A stretch of 64,000 nt of DNA from Earliella scabrosa (Eukaryota; Basidiomycota; Agaricomycetes; Polyporales; Polyporaceae): positions 310,001-374,000 of the forward strand of contig JABYQQ010000003.1 of NCBI GenBank assembly GCA_022605405.1, written 5' to 3'. Below, piece after piece: positions 59,570 to 60,888 of the stretch. Positions within the stretch are counted from its first letter, which is position 1. Every line of letters begins with the position of its first letter. The position numbers and the translations under genes were made by a program. The notes below the pieces were generated by a model that was given only the letters and a program-made list of their open reading frames with translations, searched no databases and had not been told where the DNA came from.

Positions 59570-60888
59570 ATGTTCACCGGGAACGGAATCAAAATCTTCA
59601 CTGGTGCGTGCCATACACTCAATCGATCATGTCCTGCGGACTGAACGTCCACTCGTAGGCACTAGCCACCCAGAACTCGCCGAAATCATCACTAGACGGT
59701 GCGATTCCACACCTTCAGCTCGCGAGAATACCCTTTCTAACCCCTACATCGCCCTCGTAGACTCGGCGTTCCCCTAGCAAGGGCGGAGGTCACGAAGAGC
59801 GGTGTTGGCGAGAGCCATGTCCGCATCACCGAGTCGGTCCGCGAGGACGACGTGTACATCATCAATACTGGCTGCGGCGAGATCAACACAGCACTCATGG
59901 AGGTCTGCATCATGATCCACGCATGCAAGATAGCGAGCGCAAAACGCATTACGGCCATCCTACCCCTCTACCCCTACGCCCGCCAAGACAAGAAGGACAA
60001 GAGTCGCGCACCGATTACTGCCAAGCTAGTCGCCAACATGCTCCAAAAGTCGGGATGCGACCATGTCATCGTGCGTGCACACCCTTCTGCGTGCCACCGT
60101 GCACAGTTCTCTAAGCGACTGCGAAATGCGTCATCAGACCATGGACCTCCATGCCTCGCAGATACAGGGTTTCTTCGACGTACCTGTAGACAAGTGCGTG
60201 TTTCGTCACTCGTTGGCAACGTGATCTCGGTGCTCACCTTTCTTGCACTATGTAGCGTGAGTGATTTCATTCGTCCGACCCTATCCTAGCGGCAAACATC
60301 CCTCCCATCAGCTCTACGCGGAACCATCCGCGATCCAGTACATCCGCACCAACTTCCACCTCTCCGAAATCGTGATTGTGTCGCCGGATGCGGGTGGTGC
60401 CAAGCGGTCGGTTGCCACGCGCTCGTCGTCAATTGGCCCCCCTCATGCTAATACTCCACAGTGCAACGTCCATTGCGGACCGTCTAAGTGTCGACTTCGC
60501 GTTGTTCCACAAAGAACGCAAGAAGGCCAACGAGGTCTCCCGTATGGTTCTCGTCGGTCACGTCAAAGACAAGATCGCGATCCTGGTCGACGACATGGCG
60601 GACACATGTGGGACGCTTTGCCTTGCCGCCCAACACCTGGCTGAGGCAGGAGCTACGAAGGTGTACGCGCTGGTCACGCATGGCATCTTGAGCGGCAATG
60701 CGCTCAAGAACGTGGAGGAGTCGGCACTGGAGAAGCTGATCGTGACAAATACGCTGCCACAAGCAGAGAACGTCGCCAAGTGTTCCAAGATCGAGGTCAT
60801 CGACATCGGCAACGTGCTTGCGGAGGTGATTCGACGCAGTCACTATGGAGAGAGCGTGTCGAAGCTGTTCGACGAAGTGCCGTATTAG
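59570..60888 (+). CDS. PRS: Ribose-phosphate pyrophosphokinase (PRPP synthetase)
   Basis: Makes PRPP from ribose 5-phosphate and ATP for nucleotide, His and Trp synthesis. Exons: 59570-59603, 59659-59698, 59761-60070, 60138-60193, 60256 (one nucleotide), 60312-60406 and 60462-60888, giving 320 residues, close to the usual 318. Motifs: [102 protein letters not shown] and the PRPP loop [13 protein letters not shown]. The conserved PVDN-LYAEP joint can only be made if a single C at 60256 is kept between two normal introns (60194-60255 and 60257-60311). Confidence 0.95.

Follow-up and report, generated by a model that had tools for sequence, protein, structure and literature searches.

The PRPP synthetase locus

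The window (the whole stretch of 64,000 nucleotides of Earliella scabrosa DNA that was analysed) carries a gene for PRPP synthetase (ribose-phosphate diphosphokinase) at positions 59570-60888 of its forward strand, on which all features described below lie. When a predicted exon of a single nucleotide is included, the spliced translation gives a protein of 320 amino acids with one stop, at its end. The product matches the profile PF13793, and its residues 6-319 align with chains of human PRPS1 at an E value of about 1e-133, a full-length match to solved enzymes. PRPP synthetase has two loci in the genome (51.7 Mb in 48 contigs): that of the window, on contig 3, and a second on contig 8 (L001, 1430-3160). 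The contig 8 paralog has other introns and an unbroken Asn codon at the corresponding place (GAC AAC CTT, PVDNLYSEP).

Exons 1 to 3 occupy 59570-59603, 59659-59698 and 59761-60070. Exon 4 (60138-60193) ends in GAC AA, which completes the motif PVD and adds the first two bases of an Asn codon (60192-60193). It is followed by intron 4 (60194-60255; 62 nt, GTGCGT...ATGTAG, phase 2), by the putative exon 5, a single C at 60256 that would complete the AAC codon of Asn147 as its third base, and by intron 5 (60257-60311; 55 nt, GTGAGT...CATCAG, phase 0). Exon 6 (60312-60406) opens with the codons CTC TAC GCG of the motif LYAEP, and exon 7 (60462-60888) includes the stop codon. The coordinates, bases, phases and intron lengths that an earlier note had given for the surroundings of C60256 agree with our direct re-reading of the sequence. 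We infer that C60256 is, very probably, a constitutive single-nucleotide exon that completes the AAC for Asn147, a conserved residue of the motif PVDNLYAEP; the splicing in E. scabrosa is deduced from the DNA.

The public E. scabrosa protein (P0001) is identical, across 321 residues, to the translation obtained with a single intron at 60198-60311, whose cryptic donor is GTTTCG. It reads PVDKCLYAEP and is probably wrong at residues 147-148; we judge this single-intron model to be wrong.

A missing nucleotide between PVD and LYAEP

With PVD plus AA ending at 60193 and the conserved CTC starting at 60312, the gene is one nucleotide short of frame. We enumerated the frame-keeping solutions made of single introns (GT-AG or GC-AG) or of pairs of GT-AG introns, with introns of at least 40 nt, and obtained 18 single-intron and 8 two-intron solutions; among the solutions enumerated, only the pair 60194-60255 and 60257-60311 around C60256 gives PVDNLYAEP without an indel. 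C60256 is thus needed for the frame and supplies the conserved residue, and it stands alone between the AG of one intron and the GT of the next (ATGTAG-C-GTGAGT, 60250-60262).

Each of the two flanking introns is plausible when taken alone (length, ends, branch site): both have canonical ends, and their lengths of 62 and 55 nt compare with 55-67 nt for the other introns of the gene. A branch-site-like element, CTCAC, is present in intron 4 at 60233-60237, its A lying 19 nt before the intron's 3' end, and the branch-site candidates in intron 5 are weak. Two other introns of the gene do no better in the same scan, which gave only TCCAC, very near the end, for the first intron and no candidate for the third.

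Skipping C60256 shifts the frame and leads to a stop after 167 amino acids. If intron 5 is kept, the protein stops after 157 amino acids, which bears out the earlier statement that reading on past 60256 without the second intron meets a stop. Every such error, whether the C is skipped or either intron kept, ends the reading frame within 156 to 167 codons, which would make mis-spliced RNA unproductive.

As a chance test we shuffled the 118-nt interval 20,000 times by dinucleotides and counted junction-like motifs. The pattern YAG[CT]GTRAGT, so placed that each of the two introns left was 45 nt or longer, occurred in one of the 20,000 shuffles, the looser YAG[CT]GTRNGT in 14 and the bare YAG[CT]GT in 618. 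Over both strands of the whole window YAG[CT]GTRAGT is found three times, the C60256 site included.

Transcript-like sequences of relatives

Three protein searches, from which the best 120 of 7993, 2288 and 879 matches were taken, together yielded 210 distinct proteins. The first was queried with the model containing Asn, and the second and third with anomalous proteins, so that anomalies are enriched in the combined set; the second query, of the type PVDKC, would rank transcripts of that type first. As transcript-like we counted 103 proteins, taken only from unlabelled lgn/jgi contigs with an uninterrupted open reading frame (contigs of 916 to 2976 nt, and one of 6274 nt); an RNA origin of these contigs is presumed from these features, and 15 of the 103 proteins are partial (fewer than 300 amino acids).

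Among the matches listed, 102 of the 103 transcript-like proteins read PVDN followed directly by L[YF], and one reads PVDS followed by L; no indel at the Asn147 site was found in any of them. The exception, P0066, has Ser in place of Asn (PVDSLY).

Genome annotations at the same junction

The proteins with a public annotation name (107 among the matches listed) present a different picture. Only six of these read exactly PVDN-L, and 101 deviate; in the first search alone, with its Asn-containing query, the figure is 6 of the 67 annotated matches listed. The deviations among the listed matches comprise PVDK-L (37/107), PVDK[CWY]L (37/107), PVDN-V... (9/107), P-L with VDN lost (5/107) and other readings (13/107). 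At four control junctions in the same set of listed proteins, indels were found in 1 of 104, 0 of 104, 2 of 106 and 3 of 107, versus 63 of 107 here; because the control junctions are nearly free of indels, the annotation trouble is specific to the Asn147 junction.

The deviations are, as expected, what software unable to place a single-nucleotide exon would produce. The K[CWY]L footprint, of which the public E. scabrosa protein is an exact case, would arise at AA/GTNNGT when the software takes instead the GT that follows 4 nt further on and so restores the frame, and the P-L footprint would correspond to a donor 8 nt upstream. In K-L, the AAC of an aligned transcript may have been forced onto a genomic AAG, the single-nucleotide exon being absorbed as a mismatch. 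N-V-S/C/G would result when the C is included and the reading runs on into the second donor; in Lyophyllum shimeji and Tricholomella constricta the protein continues N-V-S-D, with letters identical to the read-through in the window.

Ten annotated proteins among the matches listed have a transcript-like partner that agrees with them by at least 98% outside the site. All ten partners read PVDNLY, and nine of the ten annotations deviate; in the tenth pair, from Laccaria bicolor, the annotation and the transcript-like partner both have Asn. P0031 (Postia placenta; Postia/Rhodonia) differs from the transcript-like P0030 only at residue 147, with Lys in the former and Asn in the latter. The sole difference between two proteins of Moniliophthora roreri is an insert of 25 residues (V...Q) placed exactly between N147 and L148; it has the look of a complete phase-0 intron (GTN...CAR) that was left in. 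M. roreri may be without the first intron, so that the insert marks the position of the second intron only.

Some annotated proteins fall outside these patterns. P0025, P0026, P0046, P0054, P0090 and P0096 read the expected PVDN-L; in their species one of the two introns may be gone, and such losses would help to date when the introns came and went. In P0069, P0094 and P0099 (Macrolepiota and Leucocoprinus) the residues YS stand right before LYAEP, unlike in other relatives, and their transcript-like partners read PVDN-L; the intron boundaries of these genes may be different.

Alternative explanations

Two of the single-intron models that compete with C60256 as an exon, 60194-60289 and 60198-60311, were absent from the alternatives in the earlier note. 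The first (GTGCGT...CCTATCCTAG) has canonical ends, stays in frame without a stop and keeps the Asn; it would turn the 22 nt at 60290-60311 into coding sequence and insert seven residues, GKHPSHQ, into the protein, and a few annotated relatives do have other inserts here. Those inserts vary from species to species, however, and no insert of any kind occurs at the site in the 103 transcript-like proteins among the matches listed. The intron would also have to bypass ATGTAG 34 nt upstream and, at 96 nt, would be long beside the 55-67 nt of the gene's other introns. We therefore judge the 22 nt to be unused and this model to be very unlikely. A single intron with another donor is improbable to a still greater degree. 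Donors at 60198 (GTTTCG, PVDKCLYAEP) and 60186 (GTAGAC, VP-LYAEP with VDN deleted) both keep the frame, and the former reproduces the public protein exactly; the earlier note had correctly pointed to GTAGAC as an alternative donor but had placed it at about 60184. Both donors are poor, and neither Lys plus an extra residue nor a deletion was found at the site in any of the 103 transcript-like proteins among the matches listed, even though the anomalous queries, the KC-type one included, favoured such transcripts. In Fomes fomentarius the annotated protein P0005 has KW where the transcript-like P0002 has N, the two being identical at 318 of 321 positions; apart from the site, a single residue differs.

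A single non-canonical intron (TG-AG or GT-CA) would leave AAG, and hence Lys, at residue 147. The frame works here, PVDK-L stands in 37 of the 107 annotated relatives among the matches listed, and in some of these species a true Lys after AAG/GT could in principle be encoded. Yet the transcript-like partners of K-L annotations have Asn (P0031/P0030, P0149/P0059 and P0148/P0113), two proteins of Dichomitus squalens that differ only in K versus KW suggest a genomic AAGTGG and not AAG/GT, and K-L may simply record the mismatch described above, so that we give this reading scarcely any credence. The faintest prospect of all is that an assembly or sequencing indel, or decay of the gene copy, lies behind the missing base: an indel would look like a one-nucleotide discrepancy, but in 101 of the 107 annotated relatives among the matches listed it is this very codon at which the annotation fails, and elsewhere the gene is intact and its product agrees fully with the public protein. 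The single-nucleotide exon proposed in the earlier note is thus supported, as the sole indel-free canonical solution found, by PVD(N/S)-L in all 103 transcript-like relatives among the matches listed and by annotations that fail as it predicts; the splicing step in E. scabrosa is deduced from these.

Proposed order of splicing

On either side of the single-nucleotide exon there would be an ordinary U2-type intron: intron 4, which follows AA in phase 2, and intron 5, which precedes CTC in phase 0. The two would most likely be removed sequentially, since a distance of one base separates the acceptor of intron 4 from the donor of intron 5 and these sites could not be engaged together. Were intron 4 to leave first, the C would join the upstream exon and AAC/GTGAGT would form an ordinary donor; the reverse order is also possible, in which removal of intron 5 would give ATGTAG/C CTC. 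If this scheme is true, slow or ordered splicing could serve as a control point, because either error (skipping or retention) leads to a premature stop.

Taxonomic breadth

The gene structures of relatives were read from protein footprints. By taxonomy look-ups, strong footprints (K[CWY]L or N-V...) occur in Polyporales, Agaricales, Boletales, Russulales, Atheliales and Sistotremastrales, and the weaker footprint, K-L only, in Jaapiales, Gloeophyllales, Hymenochaetales and Geastrales. Searches for fungal DNA of relatives gave 21 loci in GTDB contigs, all titled as bacteria, and one weak locus in IMG/VR. Because the annotation footprints span Agaricomycete orders, the arrangement appears old: the single-nucleotide exon looks conserved across Agaricomycetes, and this distribution suggests an age close to that of the main Agaricomycete radiation.

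Relation to known systems

Single-nucleotide exons are already known. The first to be considered here, in Arabidopsis thaliana APC11 (Guo and Liu 2015, PMC4674806), was the one known case given in the earlier note, a picture now out of date: Nelson and Syed (2026, PMC12940212) report a single-nucleotide exon in Fusarium CYP621A, confirmed by 18 SRA reads, and describe it as the second example and the first from a fungus. A further case is reported for placozoan mitochondrial cox1. In the open-access PubMed Central literature we found no report of a single-nucleotide exon in a PRPP synthetase gene or in Basidiomycota.

APC11 resembles the PRPP synthetase gene in having one frame-essential nucleotide between two spliceosomal introns and in having been mis-annotated until cDNA was examined (PMC4674806). 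It differs in being a plant gene with the nucleotide A, located 333 nt into a 422-nt interval and tested with reporters, and its rice paralogs are without introns (PMC4674806); here the organism is a fungus, the nucleotide C and the interval 118 nt, with footprints in many orders. The resemblance to CYP621A extends to a fungal host, a phase mismatch inside a conserved motif, an intronless relative that serves as a length marker and public models that are wrong at the motif (PMC12940212). CYP621A is, however, described there from one genus (20 orthologs) as a poorly expressed P450 of unknown function, with the nucleotide G in an interval of 139 nt in F. graminearum (PMC12940212), whereas the PRPP synthetase exon belongs to primary metabolism in Basidiomycota and has class-wide footprints; it is deduced from genomic and protein sequence, and the CYP621A exon is confirmed by reads.

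The arrangement also recalls fungal stwintrons (spliceosomal twin introns), pairs of neighbouring introns that are spliced out one after the other. In a stwintron a splice signal of one intron is split by its partner, and no sequence between them is kept, whereas here one coding nucleotide is kept; a stwintron was rejected, since nothing would be retained and removal of all 118 nt frameshifts the gene. Recursive splicing with RS-exons is similar in that removal of the first intron puts a new donor at the junction. A zero-length ratchet site has the form AG/GT and nothing of it is retained. Such a site, in which GT follows AG directly, was likewise rejected, the order here being AG-C-GT with one coding nucleotide retained.

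Significance

What is new is apparently the PRPP synthetase case itself and a conservation far wider than that of the published exons. We consider it likely that an obligatory single-nucleotide exon in an enzyme of primary metabolism has been kept across the class Agaricomycetes, with splicing in two steps, and that public annotation nearly always misreads it; if true, it would be the most widely conserved exon of this size known. If true, the reading also exposes a systematic error: 101 of the 107 annotated proteins listed, the public E. scabrosa protein among them, have a conserved residue that is either wrong or open to doubt, and the three signatures (Lys, Lys plus one residue, and the N-V insert) could reveal other single-nucleotide exons from protein databases alone. 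If it is true, species across the Agaricomycetes would form a natural series for studying intron order and the working of the spliceosome on an exon too small to carry acceptor and donor complexes together. One of the smallest possible exons would then be no mere curiosity of a single plant gene or a single fungal genus, but a stable feature of a basic metabolic gene, inherited by many species.
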